NCBI GenBank assembly: GCA_025765615.1
Contig: JAIVFJ010000066.1
Location: 186,001 to 250,000, forward strand
Length of the DNA stretch: 64,000 bases
From: Zopfochytrium polystomum
Taxonomy: Eukaryota; Chytridiomycota; Chytridiomycetes; Chytridiales; Chytridiaceae
Direction: 5' to 3'
The position numbers and the translations under genes were made by a program. Shown piece after piece: positions 14,284-58,227 of this stretch (positions are counted from its first letter, which is position 1; every line of letters starts with the position of its first letter). The notes beneath the pieces are model-generated. The model made no database searches, was not told where the DNA came from, and saw only the letters and a list, made by a program, of their open reading frames with translations.

Positions 14284-14517
14284 TGTCAGGAACATGGCAG
14301 GACAAGGCAAGGCATGGCAGACAAGGAACTGAGAGGAGTGATGATTGTATTGGCAACAATAATTCACTTGAGGGATGGGACAGGTCCCCCATCCCCCTTT
14401 TATACCTTTTGAGAGTCTTCCTTGTCAAGACTCAAAGAAAGTTCCAGAAAGAGCAATTAGTAATACAATGATACCAATGATACCAATGACAACAAGACAA
14501 GTCAGGAAAGCAAAGAA
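14284..14517 (-). mobile_element. Truncated LTR, family A (gypsy chromovirus)
   Basis: Reverse-complement match to the 3' part of the LTR at 52696-53127, from its TGTTCCTGACA end through TATA and one copy of the 78-bp unit, stopping inside U3 at about 14517. It carries a single copy of the unit that is duplicated in the full-length element. It keeps the AAGTGAATTATT start-site segment and a TTC-GAA pair. Confidence 0.85.
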
Positions 14518-16461: not shown

Positions 16462-16769
16462 TGTCACGAACATGGCAGGACAGGACAAGGCAGACAAGGA
16501 ACCGAGAGGAGTGATGATTGTATTGAAAACAATAATTCACTTGAGGGATGGGACAGGTCCCCCATCCCCCCTTTATACCTTTTGAGAGTGTTCCTTGTCA
16601 AGACTCAAAGAAAGTTCCAGAAAGAGCAATTAGTAATACAATGATACCAATGATACCAATGACAACAAGACAAGTCAGGAAAGCAAAGAAGGTTCCAGAA
16701 GGTTCCATGAGGTTCCATGAAGGAATGTTCTAGAAGGTTCCAGAGGTTTCCAGAGGGTGATTTATAACA
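16462..16769 (-). mobile_element. Solo LTR, family A
   Basis: A 308-bp reverse-oriented relative of the 52696-53127 LTR with both termini present (TGTCAC... to ...TTATAACA). It has one copy of the 78-bp unit and a shorter GGAACCTTC array. Several GAA/TTC units with exact 2-base spacing remain (for example GAAtgTTCtaGAAggTTC in the plus strand). No matching 5-bp flanks were found, so the insertion is old or its flanks have recombined. Confidence 0.85.
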
Positions 16770-45430: not shown

Positions 45431-45783
45431 TGTTAGGTGGAACTGACTGGTTAGCAGCAAGAGGCACAAGATGGACCTGAACCTATTGTGACTGTCAGTT
45501 ATTGTTCTCACAATGCCCATGGGAGAGCGAGCCACTGCCAATGCAGAACTGGGCGATGGCTTGTGCTGATGACAAATACTCTGAGTATTAAGTGGAACGG
45601 AAACCCGATGTCAGCAGTTTTCCTCCTCCTCTCCTCAAGCAGATAATATAGGAGAGGTTTTTACCCTGTGCCAGTCACACTTGCCTAGCAACTATTATAG
45701 CATGCTATTACAGCGTGCATCATTATGTATCAATAATTCATAACAGAGTTTTTTTCTCTTTCTCTCAAGGTTGGGGAAAAGAG
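45431..45783 (+). mobile_element. Truncated LTR, family B
   Basis: Starts TGTTAGGTGGAACTGACTGG at 45431 and matches the family B LTR up to about 45783 (CTCAAGGTTGGGGA), where it diverges before the expected CTGTTTACA end. Opposite orientation to the copies at 3089 and 4151. Confidence 0.8.
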
Positions 45784-52340: not shown

Positions 52341-52535
52341 ATGTTAGGAATCAACCTCTGGAAACCTCTGGAACCTTCTCGAATATTCCTTCATGGAACC
52401 TTGTAGAACTTTCTGGAACCTTCTTTGCTTTCCTGACTTGTCTTGTTGTCATTTGTATCATTGGTATCATTGTATTACCAATAGTCCTTTCTGGGAACTT
52501 TCTTCGAGTCTTGACAAGGAAGACTCTCAAAAGGT
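52341..52535 (+). mobile_element. Old LTR fragment, family A
   Basis: Starts TGTTAGGAATCAACCTCTGG and follows the LTR of the full-length element with about one mismatch per 10-15 bp and a single copy of the 78-bp unit. It breaks off at CTCAAAAGG where a family B LTR begins. GAA/TTC units are kept (GAAccTTCtcGAAtaTTC). Confidence 0.82.
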
Positions 52536-52724
52536 GTAAACAGTCTACTCTGAGTGAGTGAATGAAGTGGAGACGTGTGTTTGTGGGTGGTCCTTCTCCC
52601 CAACTTGGAGAGAAAGAGAAAACTCTGTTATGAATTATTGATAAATGATGATGATATACACGCTGTAATAGTTGCTAGGCAAGTGTGACCAGCACTGTTA
52701 TGAATCACCCTCTGGAAACCTCTG

Positions 52725-52978
52725 GAACCTTCTAGAACATTCCTTCATGGAACCTTCTGGAACCTTCTGGAACCTTCTAGAACATTCCTTCATGGAACCT
52801 TGTGGAACCTTCTGGAACCTTCTTTGCTTTCCTGACTTGTCTTGTTGTCATTGGTATCATTGGTATCATTGTATTACTAATTGCTCTTTCTGGAACCTTC
52901 TTTGCATTCCTGACTTGTCTTGTTGTCATTGGTATCATTGGTATCATTGTATTACTAATTGCTCTTTCTGGAACTTTC
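52725..52978 (+). promoter_or_regulatory. Heat-shock-element arrays in LTR U3
   Basis: GAA and TTC triplets alternate at exact 5-base steps, the definition of a heat-shock element. Array 1: 52725-52742, 4 units. Array 2: 52750-52787, 8 units (GAAccTTCtgGAAccTTC and on). Array 3: 52805-52822, 4 units. Arrays 4 and 5: 52888-52900 and 52966-52978, 3 units each. HSF needs about three units to bind. The same arrays occur in the 3' LTR, 5031 bases downstream. They sit upstream of the TATA box, where an activator would act. Confidence 0.8.
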
Positions 52979-53010
52979 TTTGAGTCTTGACAAGGAAGAC
53001 TCTCCAAAGG

Positions 53011-53017
53011 TATAAAA
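53011..53017 (+). promoter_or_regulatory. TATA box of the LTR promoter
   Basis: TATAAAA followed by GGGGGATGGGG; 35 bases upstream of the predicted transcript start at AAGTGAATTAT (53046). Confidence 0.75.
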
Positions 53018-53129
53018 GGGGGATGGGGGACCTGTCCCATCCCTCAAGTGAATTATTGTTTCCAATACAATCATCACTCCTCTCAGTTCCTTGCCATGCC
53101 TTGCCTTGTCCTGCCATGTTCCTGACATC

Positions 53130-53140
53130 ATAATTCACTT
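53130..53140 (+). other. Self-primer binding site
   Basis: ATAATTCACTT, two bases inside the 5' LTR, is the exact reverse complement of AAGTGAATTAT at 53046-53056 in the LTR, where transcription should begin. In Tf1 of fission yeast the first 11 transcript bases fold onto such a site and prime minus-strand synthesis. I recognised no tRNA 3'-end complement at this site. Confidence 0.72.
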
Positions 53141-53167
53141 CACCCTCTCCCACTACTCTCTGCCATC

Positions 53168-54091
53168 ATGTCTGACCCAAACAACACCTTCCCTGATGCA
53201 ACTGCCTTCCAAGCCTTGATGGACCAATTACAAGCCCTCTCAAGACAGACACACCAACTTCAAGAACAAGTCCTTCACCAGCAGCACCAGCTTCAACAAC
53301 AACTTCACCAACAAGAACATCAAGCTCTTCCCCTGCCTCAAGCCAACCAAGCAAGAGAGCCCAAGGTTCCCAGCCCTGACAAGTTCACTGGGCTGGCCAA
53401 AGACCTTAGGAACTTCATGGCCACTGTGGAGAATGTCATCCTTCTCCAACCTTCAAGATTTCCCAGTGAGCAAGTCAAGGTTCTTTTCACAAGCACCCTC
53501 CTGTCTGGTCAAGCTCAATCATGGTACAGATCTCTCCCAAGCACACCCACCACCCTGCAAGAGCTCTGGGAGGGGCTGGAAGCTACCTTTGGTGACCCCT
53601 ACGCATCTTGGACAGCAAGATCCAAGCTCAAGCATATCAAGCAAGGAAAGCAATCTTGTGTGGCCTACACCAACCAATTCAAGCAACTAGCCAGAGACTC
53701 TGGATACAATGATGCAGCTCTGATGGAGCTGTACCATGATGGTCTCCATGAGTCTATCCAAGACATGCTCTCCCAGTCTCTGCACATCCCTGAGACCTTG
53801 GAAGAGTACATTCTCCTTGCCATCAAGATTGACAACAGACTCTACTCCAAGAGGCTGAAGCAAAGACAAGTAGGAACTACATCAAGACCTACCCCAGTTC
53901 CTCAAGCTCTTACAGTTCCTGAACCCATGCAAGTGGATGCAGTTGAGACACTTCCTAAGGGTCCTCTGAGCCAAGAGGAGAAAACAAGGAGGGCCCAGCA
54001 GGGACTGTGTTTTTACTGTGGCTCCAAGGAGCATGCTGTCAAGGACTGCCCAAGGAAGAAGCACCCAAACTCCCAGGTCCAGGCTCACTGA
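53168..54091 (+). CDS. gag: Retrotransposon Gag
   Basis: 307 aa from ATG 53168, 28 bases after the primer site. A Gln-rich coiled-coil leader (residues 15-55) is followed by a retrotransposon gag core with PDKFTGLAKDLRNFMATVE, SGQAQSWYRSL and LEATFGDP, and near the end a CCHC zinc knuckle CFYCGSKEHAVKDC. It forms the virus-like particle and packages element RNA. Its last 133 bases overlap the open pol frame. Confidence 0.95.
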   Translation: MSDPNNTFPDATAFQALMDQLQALSRQTHQLQEQVLHQQHQLQQQLHQQEHQALPLPQANQAREPKVPSPDKFTGLAKDLRNFMATVENVILLQPSRFPSEQVKVLFTSTLLSGQAQSWYRSLPSTPTTLQELWEGLEATFGDPYASWTARSKLKHIKQGKQSCVAYTNQFKQLARDSGYNDAALMELYHDGLHESIQDMLSQSLHIPETLEEYILLAIKIDNRLYSKRLKQRQVGTTSRPTPVPQALTVPEPMQVDAVETLPKGPLSQEEKTRRAQQGLCFYCGSKEHAVKDCPRKKHPNSQVQAH

Positions 54092-57000
54092 GGGGCAATT
54101 CCCTGGACCCTCCTCCAAGCTGCCCCTGTTTCATCACCACCACCAGCACCACAAACACCTCAGATTCCAAGCCCCACCAACTCACCATGGATGTCAAGAT
54201 TCAACTCTCACCCAAGTCAACCATCACAACCAAGGCCCTTATAGACTCTGGATCATCCTGCAACATCATTGATGCCACCCTTGCCAAGTCTTGTGCCATT
54301 CCCACCATCAAGAAATCCACACCCCTCAAGGTCCACTTTGCCAATCATGCTCTGTTCAAGGAAATCAGCCATGAAACCAAGCTAAACCTCCACATCCAAG
54401 ACTTTCCACCATCCATGGTCAATCTGGAAGTATTGGATCTTGGCTCACCCACATTCTCTGTCATCCTGGGATTACCATGGCTGCAAGCCCAGAACCCTGC
54501 CATTGATTGGGTCACTGGTCAAGTCCAACCTCCACCAATTGGAACAGTCACCCAAAACTCAAGTCAAGCCCCCAAGTCTCATGCTCTCAAGCCCTTGATT
54601 CAAGATTCACAGCCAGCCAAGACTCAAGTTCCACAGTTCACAGTTCACAGTCAAGATTCAAGTAGAGCTCATAGAGCTCACAGTCATGGCCATGACTCTT
54701 GTTCACAGAACCCACAGTCAAAGATTCAAGTACCACAGTTCACAGTCCACATTCAAGATTCAAGTTCCACAGCTCACAGTCTTTGCCAAGAACAGAACTC
54801 TCAGTCAAAGATTCAAGAATCACAGTTCCCAGTCAAGAATTCAAGCCCCACTGCTGAAGAGCACAGGAACTTGGACCCATCAGACCTTTTGCTGGCATCC
54901 AAGCTACCAAAAGAATATCTCCCTTATGCTGACGTGTTTTCCAAGACCAAGGCAGACCTGCTACCAGCTCAGAGGCCTTATGACTGTGAAATCCCACTCA
55001 AGGATGAAACTTGCAGCCCACCTTTCAAGCCACTGTACCACCTCTCTCCACCAGAAGCCAAGGCCCTCCAAGAATACATTGAAGAAATGCTGAACAAGGG
55101 ATTCATCCAACCTTCCAAGTCACCAGCTGGAGCTCCCATCTTTTTTGTCAAGAAGAAGGATGGGGGACTGAGACCCTGTGTGGACTACAGAGATCTCAAT
55201 GAGATGACAGTCAAGAACCGCTATCCACTGCCTCTCATCTCTGAATTACTGGACAAACTGAGCCATGCAAGGATATTTTCCAAGATTGACCTCAGAGGTG
55301 CCTACAATTTGGTCAGAATTAAGCCCCAGGATCAATGGAAGACTGCCTTCAGATGCAAATACGGTCACTTTGAGTACTTGGTTATGCCCTTTGGACTTAC
55401 CAATGCTCCAGCTATTTTCCAAGGCATGATGAATGACATCTTCAGGGATATTCTGGACCTTTTTGTCATTGTCTACCTGGATGATATCCTGGTATTTTCA
55501 TCTGACACTGCAAGCCATATGGGACATGTCAAGACTGTCTTGGAGAGACTCAGACAGCATCACCTCTATGCAAAGCTGGAGAAGTGTGAATTCCACAAGA
55601 CCTCCATTGAGTTTTTGGGGTTCATTGTGTCTGACAAAGGGATCTCCATGGCACCAGACAAGATCCAAACTATTCTTGAATGGAAGGCTCCAAATTCCAT
55701 CAAGGATGTTCAAAGCTTCCTTGGATTTTGCAACTTCTACAGAACCTTCATTGCCAACTATTCTGCCATAGCCAAGCCTCTCACTGATCTCACCAAGAAG
55801 ACCACCAAGTTTGAATGGACCCCAGCAGCAGAGCAAGCCTGGCTAGCTCTTAAGACAGCAACCACAAGTGCACCACTCCTTAAGCATGTGGATCCCTTGC
55901 TTCCCTTCACCTTGGAAACTGATGCCTCAGACTATGCCCTTGGCGCTGTTCTGTCCCAGCCAAGCTCTCAGGACCCCTCTGCTCCTCTGCATCCAGTGGC
56001 AAATTACTCCAGGAAGCTGAACAGTGCTGAGTGTAACTACACAGTCCATGACAAGGAGTTGCTTGCAATTGTGGAAGCATTCAAATTCTGGAGACACTAC
56101 TTGGCTGGTTCTAAAGGCATCTCTGTCTATTCTGATCACAAGAACCTCACCTTCTTCAGGGCAAGGAGGTTGCTCAAGCAGAGGCATGCCAGGTGGGCTG
56201 AACTGCTCTCTGAGTATGACTTTAAGCTGTGCTATTCTCCTGGCCACCTTAACACTGTGGCTGATGCCCTGTCAAGAAGAACAGACCTTGCACCTGAAGG
56301 GGGAGATGGTTTCACCCCACCATCCAAGACACACCTTTCATTGCTTCCTGACAGTGTGTGGGCCCATGCTATTTCCAAGGACCCCAAGCCTCACAAGATT
56401 CAAATCAGCCAAGAAGAGGAAAAACTTGAGATACTCAAGACAAGGCATGATGCAGCAACAGCTGGACACCCAGGAGAGCACAAGACATATGAGCTTGTTT
56501 CCAGAGACTTCTACTGGCCAGGCATGAGGAAGTACATCAAGAACTATGTCAGCAGCTGTGAAACCTGTCAAAGAAACAAATCCAGCAGACACAAGCCCTA
56601 TGGACTTCTGGAGCCCCTCCCAATTGCCATCAGCCCTTGGTCATCAATATCCATGGACTTCATTGTGAAACTGCCCCCATCCCATGGATTTGACTCTATC
56701 CTTGTTGTCATCTGCAGAAGGACAAAGTTGGCCCATTTCATCCCCTGCACTGAGAATATAGATGCACAAGGAACAGCAGACCTGTTTTTGCAGCACATAT
56801 TCAGGCTCCATGGGCTGCCTCAGTCAATCGTCAGTGACAGAGGACCACAGTTCAGATCTCAATTTTGGAAAGCACTCACAGCAGCCCTTGGAATCAAGTC
56901 TCAACTGTCAACTGCTTATCACCCTCAGACTGATGGACAAACAGAAAGAACAAACCAGACTCTGGAGCAGTATTTGAGGTGCTATGTCAGCTATCAACAG

Positions 57001-57726
57001 GATGATTGGCCCACCCTCCTTCCACTGGCAGAATTTGCTCTCAACAATTCTCTCCACTCAAGCACCCAGCTATCTCCTTTCTTTGCAACCTATGGCTTCA
57101 ATCCAAGAGGAGATCTTCTGGGACAAGAGACCCTATCCAATGTCCAAGCTCCTGCTGCGGCTTCACACTTACATAAGCTCAAGATCATCAACTCCTTCCT
57201 GGACTCCACCCTGAAGCAAGCCCAAGAAGATGCCTCAAGATTTGCCAACACTCACAGAATGGACCATGACCTTGCTGTGGGTCAGCAAGTTTGGCTTCTG
57301 AGGAAGAACTTGCAGACCAAAAGACCAAGTCCCAAGCTAGACAACCTCAAGTTGGGTCCTTTCAAGATCTTGGAGCAAATCAATCCAGTCACCTTCAAGC
57401 TGGATCTCCCTGCATCCATGAAGATCCACCCAGTTTTCCATGTCAGCCTTTTAGAGAAGTTTGTGGCCAATTCCATTCCAGGCAGAGTTGTTCCTCCTCC
57501 TCCTCCAGTTGAGGTAGAAGGTGAAGAGGAATTTGAGGTTGAACAAATCTTGGATGCCAAGTGGTTTGGAAGGACACTCAAGTTCCTTGTTAAGTGGAAA
57601 GGTTACTCAGATGCTGACAACACCTGGGAACCTGAGTCAAACCTCACTCACTGCCAAGACCTTCTGCTCAAGTTCAAGACCAGGTACCCCACCAAGTTGC
57701 AGAAGAGGCCTAAAAGGGGGAGATGA
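53959..57726 (+). CDS. pol: Retrotransposon Pol: protease, RT, RNase H, integrase, chromodomain
   Basis: Open from 53959 in the -1 frame relative to gag, stop TGA 57724-57726, no internal stops. Residue numbers are counted from 54007. The protease has LIDSGSS (D about 80). The reverse transcriptase has VDYRDLNEMTVKNRYPLP, KIDLRGAYNLVRI, FGLTNAPAIF and YLDD (490-493). RNase H has TLETDASDYALGAVLSQ, DKELLAIVEAF and VYSDHKNL. Integrase has an HHCC finger (HPGEHKTY through CETCQRNK) and D884, D944, E980 with D(35)E spacing (SMDF, VSDRGPQF, TDGQTERTNQ). The chromodomain from about 1178 (LDAKWFGRTLKFLVKWKGYS, NTWEPESNL) can steer integration to marked chromatin. There is no ATG at the frame start, so it is probably made as a Gag-Pol fusion. 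Confidence 0.95.
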   Translation, partial: GSSEPRGENKEGPAGTVFLLWLQGACCQGLPKEEAPKLPGPGSLRGNSLDPPPSCPCFITTTSTTNTSDSKPHQLTMDVKIQLSPKSTITTKALIDSGSSCNIIDATLAKSCAIPTIKKSTPLKVHFANHALFKEISHETKLNLHIQDFPPSMVNLEVLDLGSPTFSVILGLPWLQAQNPAIDWVTGQVQPPPIGTVTQNSSQAPKSHALKPLIQDSQPAKTQVPQFTVHSQDSSRAHRAHSHGHDSCSQNPQSKIQVPQFTVHIQDSSSTAHSLCQEQNSQSKIQESQFPVKNSSPTAEEHRNLDPSDLLLASKLPKEYLPYADVFSKTKADLLPAQRPYDCEIPLKDETCSPPFKPLYHLSPPEAKALQEYIEEMLNKGFIQPSKSPAGAPIFFVKKKDGGLRPCVDYRDLNEMTVKNRYPLPLISELLDKLSHARIFSKIDLRGAYNLVRIKPQDQWKTAFRCKYGHFEYLVMPFGLTNAPAIFQGMMNDIFRDILDLFVIVYLDDILVFSSDTASHMGHVKTVLERLRQHHLYAKLEKCEFHKTSIEFLGFIVSDKGISMAPDKIQTILEWKAPNSIKDVQSFLGFCNFYRTFIANYSAIAKPLTDLTKKTTKFEWTPAAEQAWLALKTATTSAPLLKHVDPLLPFTLETDASDYALGAVLSQPSSQDPSAPLHPVANYSRKLNSAECNYTVHDKELLAIVEAFKFWRHYLAGSKGISVYSDHKNLTFFRARRLLKQRHARWAELLSEYDFKLCYSPGHLNTVADALSRRTDLAPEGGDGFTPPSKTHLSLLPDSVWAHAISKDPKPHKIQISQEEEKLEILKTRHDAATAGHPGEHKTYELVSRDFYWPGMRKYIKNYVSSCETCQRNKSSRHKPYGLLEPLPIAISPWSSISMDFIVKLPPSHGFDSILVVICRRTKLAHFIPCTENIDAQGTADLFLQHIFRLHGLPQSIVSDRGPQFRSQFWKALTAALGIKSQLSTAYHPQTDGQTERTNQTLEQYLRCYVSYQQDDWPTLLPLAEFALNNSLHSSTQLSPFFATYGFNPRGDLLGQETLSNVQAPAAASHLHKLKIINSFLDSTLKQAQEDASRFANTHRMDHDLAVGQQVWLLRKNLQTKRPSPKLDNLKLGPFKILEQINPVTFKLDLPASMKIHPVFHVSLLEKFVANSIPGRVVPPPPPVEVEGEEEFEVEQILDAKWFGRTLKFLVKWKGYSDADNTWEPESNLTHCQDLLLKFKTRYPTKLQKRPKRGR
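57712..57723 (+). other. Polypurine tract
   Basis: AAAAGGGGGAGA, three bases (the pol stop TGA) before the 3' LTR. It is the plus-strand primer and also encodes the last residues of Pol. Confidence 0.85.
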
Positions 57727-58158
57727 TGTTATGAATCACCCTCTGGAAACCTCTGGAACCTTCTAGAACATTCCTTCATGGAACCTTCTGGAACCTTCTG
57801 GAACCTTCTAGAACATTCCTTCATGGAACCTTGTGGAACCTTCTGGAACCTTCTTTGCTTTCCTGACTTGTCTTGTTGTCATTGGTATCATTGGTATCAT
57901 TGTATTACTAATTGCTCTTTCTGGAACCTTCTTTGCATTCCTGACTTGTCTTGTTGTCATTGGTATCATTGGTATCATTGTATTACTAATTGCTCTTTCT
58001 GGAACTTTCTTTGAGTCTTGACAAGGAAGACTCTCCAAAGGTATAAAAGGGGGATGGGGGACCTGTCCCATCCCTCAAGTGAATTATTGTTTCCAATACA
58101 ATCATCACTCCTCTCAGTTCCTTGCCATGCCTTGCCTTGTCCTGCCATGTTCCTGACA
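57727..58158 (+). repeat. 3' LTR
   Basis: 432 bp, read as identical to the 5' LTR, followed by the target duplication AGCAC at 58159-58163. Confidence 0.95.
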
Positions 58159-58227
58159 AGCACAGGGTAAAAACCTCTCCTATATTATCTGCTTGAGCAG
58201 AGGAGGAGGAAACCTGTTGACACTGGA

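Follow-up and report, generated by a model that had tools for sequence, protein, structure and literature searches.

A young Ty3/gypsy chromovirus of the chytrid Zopfochytrium polystomum with heat-shock element arrays in its long terminal repeats: a candidate heat-inducible retrotransposon

Arrays of heat-shock elements (HSEs) in the long terminal repeat (LTR) have been described in ONSEN/ATCOPIA78 and TERESTRA, which are Ty1-copia retrotransposons of the Brassicaceae (PMC3907296, PMC5059998). ONSEN is coupled to the host heat-shock factor (HSF; PMC3907296), and a correlation was reported between arrays of at least four contiguous units in Brassicaceae LTRs and heat induction of up to a thousand-fold (PMC5059998). 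Here we describe an LTR retrotransposon located at 52696-58158 (plus strand) in a 64,000-nucleotide stretch of the Zopfochytrium polystomum genome (contig JAIVFJ010000066.1, referred to below as the window), the LTR of which carries 22 exact GAA/TTC units. This LTR is likely to be the HSF-driven, heat-inducible promoter of a young, high-copy Ty3/gypsy chromovirus, and the element probably multiplies under heat stress of its host. This reading is based on the statistics of the arrays, their retention in the family, the contrast between the GAA/TTC letters and the letters separating them, the presence of host HSF genes, the HSEs of the hsp20 genes, the recent activity of the family, and the analogy with the Brassicaceae elements.

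ONSEN and TERESTRA are copia elements; the chytrid element, by contrast, belongs to the gypsy chromoviruses, has 22 units in its LTR, and is represented by about 2,060 LTRs in the genome. Both the ONSEN promoter and the chytrid LTR are devoid of CG sites, but ONSEN also lacks CHG sites (PMC3907296), of which the chytrid LTR has 13. The heat activation of ONSEN has been proven experimentally, whereas the chytrid element is known here from its sequence alone; the likeness between the two is best read as convergence. DIRS-1 of Dictyostelium provides another parallel, which was drawn, along with that to ONSEN, in an earlier note on this DNA. In connection with DIRS-1, the accessible part of PMC4482531 mentions only a stress-induced antisense transcript.

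Precedents for HSF-driven LTR elements exist in plants, and elements of Cryptococcus carry one or two putative HSEs. MAGGY, a fungal LTR retrotransposon of Magnaporthe, was reportedly the object of an original heat-shock study. Stress-induced activation of its promoter is reported in PMC3978060, the main text of which contains neither "heat shock element" nor "HSE". The Cryptococcus LTR retrotransposons TCN3 and TCN12, the mobility of which is raised at 37°C, carry two and one putative HSEs, respectively, in the LTR (PMC12810828), as compared with 22 units in five arrays in the chytrid LTR. The case of a mobile element supplying most of the HSEs of a genome is known from the Helitrons of Caenorhabditis (61.4% in C. 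elegans), which are DNA transposons with HSF-1 binding established by ChIP-seq (PMC6927752), whereas the chytrid element is an LTR retrotransposon. The open-access literature searched, from which subscription papers are mostly absent, yielded neither a description of an LTR with HSE arrays in chytrids nor a proven HSF-driven transposable element (TE) in fungi. The novelty here lies in the different superfamily and phylum, the unusual HSE load, the copy number, and the CpG depletion. The element is a strong candidate, being young, abundant, and much richer in HSEs than the fungal examples above.

HSE arrays of the LTR and HSEs of the host

The 22 units, each of which is one GAA or TTC (the core letters, the letters between units being the spacers), are located in the unique 3' (U3) region at 52725-52978. 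They alternate in orientation in 5-bp steps and form five arrays of 4, 8, 4, 3, and 3 units at 52725-52742, 52750-52787, 52805-52822, 52888-52900, and 52966-52978, respectively (all plus strand). The fourth and fifth arrays are counterparts in a 78-bp internal duplication, from which the window copy obtained one of its two 3-unit arrays. The fifth array starts 45 bp before the TATA box (TATAAAA, 53011-53017, plus strand), so that five arrays of at least three contiguous nGAAn units lie upstream of the predicted start site. On a single 5-bp phase, 18 of the 24 slots in 52710-52825 are filled (the 18 units span 52715 to 52822), and the other four phases hold 0, 0, 0, and 2. In 2,000 dinucleotide shuffles of U3, arrays of at least two units contained on average 0.9 and at most 8 units, and an 8-unit run never occurred. 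The 49-base distal array has 2,060 genomic matches at up to three mismatches, and the reversed pattern has none. The coordinates and unit counts given in the earlier note (22 units, five arrays, one with eight) are thus correct, as is the position it assigned to the arrays upstream of a TATA box (TATAAA at 53011); in view of the shuffle statistics and the genomic matches, the arrays are real and common to the family.

The transcription start is predicted to lie 35 bp after the TATA box, at 53046-53056 (plus strand), where an 11-nt self-primer is located, and the primer-binding site (53130-53140, plus strand) is complementary to these 11 nt. This match between the site and the LTR also predicts, independently, where transcription starts. 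The arrangement matches that of Tf1 and Tj1 of fission yeasts, in which self-priming from the 5' end of the element's own mRNA was shown for Tf1 and proposed for Tj1 (PMC4600332); HSE arrays are not mentioned for Tf1/Tj1 in the accessible part of that paper. Priming by a tRNA was rejected in view of the 11-nt match to the LTR itself, no search for a tRNA match having been made. In the mechanism proposed, heat or another protein-folding stress would bring host HSF trimers side by side onto the 5-bp grid upstream of the TATA box, the bound HSF would launch transcription from a point some 35 bp past the TATA box, and the RNA would then pair through its first 11 nt with the primer-binding site, so that reverse transcription would be primed by the 5' end of the element's own RNA. 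We infer from these features not only HSF binding, heat induction, and the start site, but also that the arrays have aided the spread of the family.

The genome contains 14 matches to the HSF domain over the cut-off, some of which are neighboring exon pieces, and in the one HSF gene examined (L009), the DNA-binding domain matches solved HSF structures. The best 12 of the 33 hsp20 matches were cut out (L079-L090). These loci form a multigene family of similar paralogues, most of which share an imperfect HSE of the GGAATTGTCCAGAAGCTTCC type before the TATA box: in ten of the 12, a TATA box at -117 to -159 is preceded, at -185 to -233, by a 4-slot HSE with 11 of 12 letters. HSEs of this type were absent from 17.8 kb of downstream sequence and from the HSF loci (35.8 kb of distinct sequence in 44.5 kb), and two were found in 57.7 kb of the LTR-free window. 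Because the hsp20 genes are paralogues, they do not amount to ten independent observations. The earlier note had spoken of an apparent zoosporic fungus, and a chytrid host is borne out by these genes: three Zopfochytrium polystomum records match the hsp20 proteins of L084/L085, L087, and L088 without any difference (161/161 residues each), and that of L079 is identical to a partial record from the same species (152/152).

Conservation of the arrays within the family

We collected 83 LTR places, five of which are in the window, from two best-candidate searches and later fetches. The 73 places of full length correspond to 39 distinct sequences of 299-432 bp, and ten places were left out: four pieces at locus ends, two fragments in the window, and four copies of which the match begins at position 57 (L056, L063 twice, and L073). 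The copies fetched were those matching the U3 and unique 5' (U5) regions of the window LTR best, so that the set leans young; a further 39 places are not in it. In every full-length copy (73/73), one or more arrays reach four units or more, with 7-22 units in total, and the TATA-proximal 3-unit array, which lies outside the distal tandem repeat, is present in 72 of the 73. LTR pairs were built only from places matching from the first to the last base, which leaves out L063. All 22 pairs have matching 5-bp target-site duplications (TSDs); 17 show no mismatch between the LTRs, one shows one, one shows two, and three differ in length. Judging from the matching TSDs and the 17 pairs without mismatch, this high-copy family is young and recently active.

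The GAA/TTC letters vary less than the spacers. With the flanks of the distal array fixed, the genome contains 1,488 exact matches, 1,776 with the spacers free, and 1,605 with the cores free; that is, 288 spacer-only variants over 6 sites as compared with 117 core-only variants over 12 sites, or 4.9-fold less core variation per site among about 1,900 copies. In the listed stretch C1-C6 (83 exact rows), 17 rows belonging to 7 haplotypes are spacer variants, and 2 rows belonging to 2 haplotypes are core variants (7:2 by haplotype, p = 0.008). The same tendency is seen in a diverged LTR copy truncated at the TATA box (52342-52540, plus strand; the TATA position reads GTGTAAA), which shows 13 substitutions in 198 aligned bases: 0/33 in cores, 3/16 in spacers, and 10/149 elsewhere (core versus spacer, p = 0.03). 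The earlier note had placed this copy at 52341-52535 and stated that it keeps the pattern despite its divergence. The divergence is real and the two 4-unit arrays are intact, but the proximal array is broken by a 1-bp insertion and the span differs slightly.

Several results weigh against this picture. The genome-wide count sets cores against spacers only, with no baseline from the other flanking letters, and since the copies share ancestry, a p-value computed on copies means little. In C1-C6, the ratio counted by letter changes is only 7:4 (p = 0.04). In the 39 distinct LTRs, counted by column on an alignment with ambiguities within the repeats, variation is as frequent in core columns as in the remainder of U3 (8/57 versus 21/160, p = 0.82), the difference between cores and spacers is borderline (8/57 versus 10/30, p = 0.05), and variation is more frequent in the spacers than in the remaining U3 columns (10/30, p = 0.013). 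The core-spacer contrast may thus be due to rapid change in the spacers, and not to protection of the cores. In the diverged copy, the difference between cores and other positions is not significant (p = 0.21), and slippage is enough to expand a 10-bp tandem unit, with no need for selection. On the host side, two of the 12 hsp20 promoters lack the 4-slot site, and two HSP90 promoters show no upstream array of at least three units, their best site having 9 of 12 letters. The HSP90 promoters were accordingly rejected as positive controls, and the site accompanying the host HSF genes occurs in 10 of 12 hsp20 promoters and 0 of 2 HSP90 promoters.

The earlier note had proposed comparing the GAA/TTC positions with neighboring bases and had seen a hint of selection in the older copies. 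Made with the spacers genome-wide, the comparison does not refute the idea, whereas in the 39 LTRs the cores do not prove steadier than the rest of U3; in the diverged copy, the cores differ from the spacers but not significantly from the other positions. Purifying selection on the HSEs is likely on these sequence comparisons, but not proven.

The alternative that fares best is that the HSE letters only seem conserved because the family is very young, with no selection and with spacers that are merely fast. It fits the absence of mismatches in 17 of the 22 LTR pairs, as well as the 39 distinct LTRs, in which the cores vary like other U3 columns and the spacers vary more. Youth, however, lowers all variation alike, and explains neither the core-spacer contrast over about 1,900 copies nor that in the diverged copy, and we regard this explanation as rather unlikely. 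It is still less probable that HSF binds the LTR in the service of constitutive or developmental expression (in sporangia or zoospores, or under oxidative stress, for example) rather than of a heat-specific response: the arrays and the host HSF genes would fit any HSF activity, and several HSF-domain loci are present in the genome, but a site of this class, similarly placed before the TATA box, is also present in the hsp20 genes, which would be expected to respond to heat shock. The least probable reading, that of a functionless minisatellite in which a 10-bp GGAACCTTCT repeat grows by slippage or by recombination during reverse transcription, agrees with the different array lengths between the LTRs of single elements (L032, L059) and with array indels that are mostly multiples of 5 or 10 bp, but the repeat unit has the exact form of an inverted 5-bp HSE, an array lies separately near the TATA box, and slippage alone does not predict the 4.9-fold lower core variation per site.

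HSEs and CpG content at the genome level

The assembly amounts to 80.16 Mb. A genome of 81.2 Mb, reported to be the largest among chytrids and to contain 12.3% TEs, the second-highest share, was attributed to Cladochytrium polystomum in PMC9926174, the reference list of which includes the description of Zopfochytrium; we infer that the two names designate the same fungus. One 4-unit HSE pattern has 7,320 genomic matches, whereas the reversed pattern has 7, and composition would predict about 1.7 per strand; overlapping matches in long arrays are counted separately in this figure, and the first 100 rows form 29 clusters. Nearly all the perfect 4-unit HSEs of the genome appear to belong to this LTR family, in view of the spacer types (100 of the 7,320 matches being listed) and the agreement with the LTR count. 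Only three sites have spacers unlike those usual in the LTR. One of them is another copy of this LTR, the three array changes of which are all in spacers; this copy was picked by its intact cores, and is hence not evidence of constraint. The possibility that perfect 4-unit HSEs outside the LTRs mark host heat-shock genes was rejected: of the three sites, two could be assigned, one being this LTR copy and the other lying inside an open reading frame (ORF) with ABC-transporter domains.

The CpG counts are 0 in the LTR (18.7 expected), 1 in gag (56.7), and 6 in pol (203), and in 21 further paired elements the CpG content is 0.01-0.05 of expectation. The corresponding ratio is 0.97 in the window without the element, 1.12 in the hsp20 loci, and 0.41 in the flanks of the 21 insertions. 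Coding part included, the element has thus lost nearly all its CpG, while the host genome, as sampled, has a normal CpG content. Of the arginine codons in gag and pol, 61/62 are AGA or AGG. TpG is in excess throughout the element, and CpA in gag and pol, which points to deamination of methylated CpG in the lineage or to long-term avoidance, rather than to the signature of repeat-induced point mutation. If the LTR is indeed an HSF-driven, heat-inducible promoter, it is possible, though we propose this only tentatively, that a single nearly CpG-free family has spread about 2,000 multi-unit HSE promoters, so that nearly all the perfect 4-unit HSEs of the host would be those of the parasite; heat would then trigger bursts of transposition along with competition for, or rewiring of, the host HSF, and the loss of CpG would serve to evade CpG methylation. 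The genome provides a natural case of thousands of HSE arrays carried by a recently active, almost CpG-free element.

Architecture, relatives, and derivatives of the element

The element is flanked by a 5-bp TSD (AGCAC, 52691-52695 on the left and 58159-58163 on the right). The 5' LTR (52696-53127, plus strand, 432 bp, TG...CA, no CpG) is 100% identical to the 3' LTR (57727-58158, plus strand), in which the same five arrays lie at 57756-58009. The gag ORF (53168-54091, plus strand) encodes 307 residues with a Retrotrans_gag domain, and is overlapped in a different frame by the pol ORF (54007-57726, plus strand), encoding protease, reverse transcriptase (RT), RNase H, integrase, and chromodomain; a polypurine tract was read off the sequence at 57712-57723 (plus strand). 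The order of the Pol domains (RVT_1, RT_RNaseH, Integrase_H2C2, rve, and Chromo) bears out the assignment to the gypsy chromoviruses made previously: RT, RNase H, and integrase are followed by a C-terminal chromodomain, and the TG...CA LTRs, 5-bp TSD, and polypurine tract are all present. Membership of ONSEN/COPIA78 was rejected because the integrase follows the RT, whereas it precedes the RT in Ty1-copia, and membership of DIRS because the element has an rve integrase and direct LTRs instead of a tyrosine recombinase and inverted terminal repeats. Among the 120 protein matches listed of 5,118, the closest full-length ones show 57-71% identity and are on short, probably metagenomic contigs, and those that carry an organism name and cover 75% or more show at most 50% identity. 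No relatives of Pol were found in viral contigs by a scan that detects close relatives only.

Two other LTR copies are present in the window. The LTR at 16462-16769 (minus strand, 308 bp, arrays of 4, 4, and 3 units, no matching TSD) had been taken for an older copy, but it is complete and close to the family, and is not clearly old. The other is a fragment at 14284-14517 (minus strand) with one 3-unit array.

Six LTR pairs, including that of the window, delimit elements of 5.3-5.5 kb; the others, which share the LTR, measure 1.8, 2.5, and 3.1-3.2 kb. The 13 derivatives of 3.1-3.2 kb (L025, L028-L034, L036, L058, and L070-L072) keep gag and typically lack pol residues 291-756 and 846-1097 according to tblastn, with different edges in L033 and L034. 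These amplified short derivatives share their deletions, and have lost the RT/RNase H and the integrase core. In the 2.5-kb derivatives (L052 and L065), most of gag is gone as well. Despite matching TSDs, the two LTRs differ by 55 bp in L032 (308/363 bp) and by 10 bp in L059 (348/358 bp), which suggests that the number of units can change during reverse transcription. In both LTRs of L063 and in L055, L056, and L073, small changes have made longer distal arrays (6 and 5 units), and in those of L063 the TATA-R-U5 part (R, repeated region) is also duplicated in tandem. A 69-nt inverted repeat pair is present at 45609-45677 and 58154-58222, the right arm of which begins at the end of the 3' LTR. 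A sequence similar to this repeat adjoins the element in L063 too, so that the insertions may fall in another repeat.
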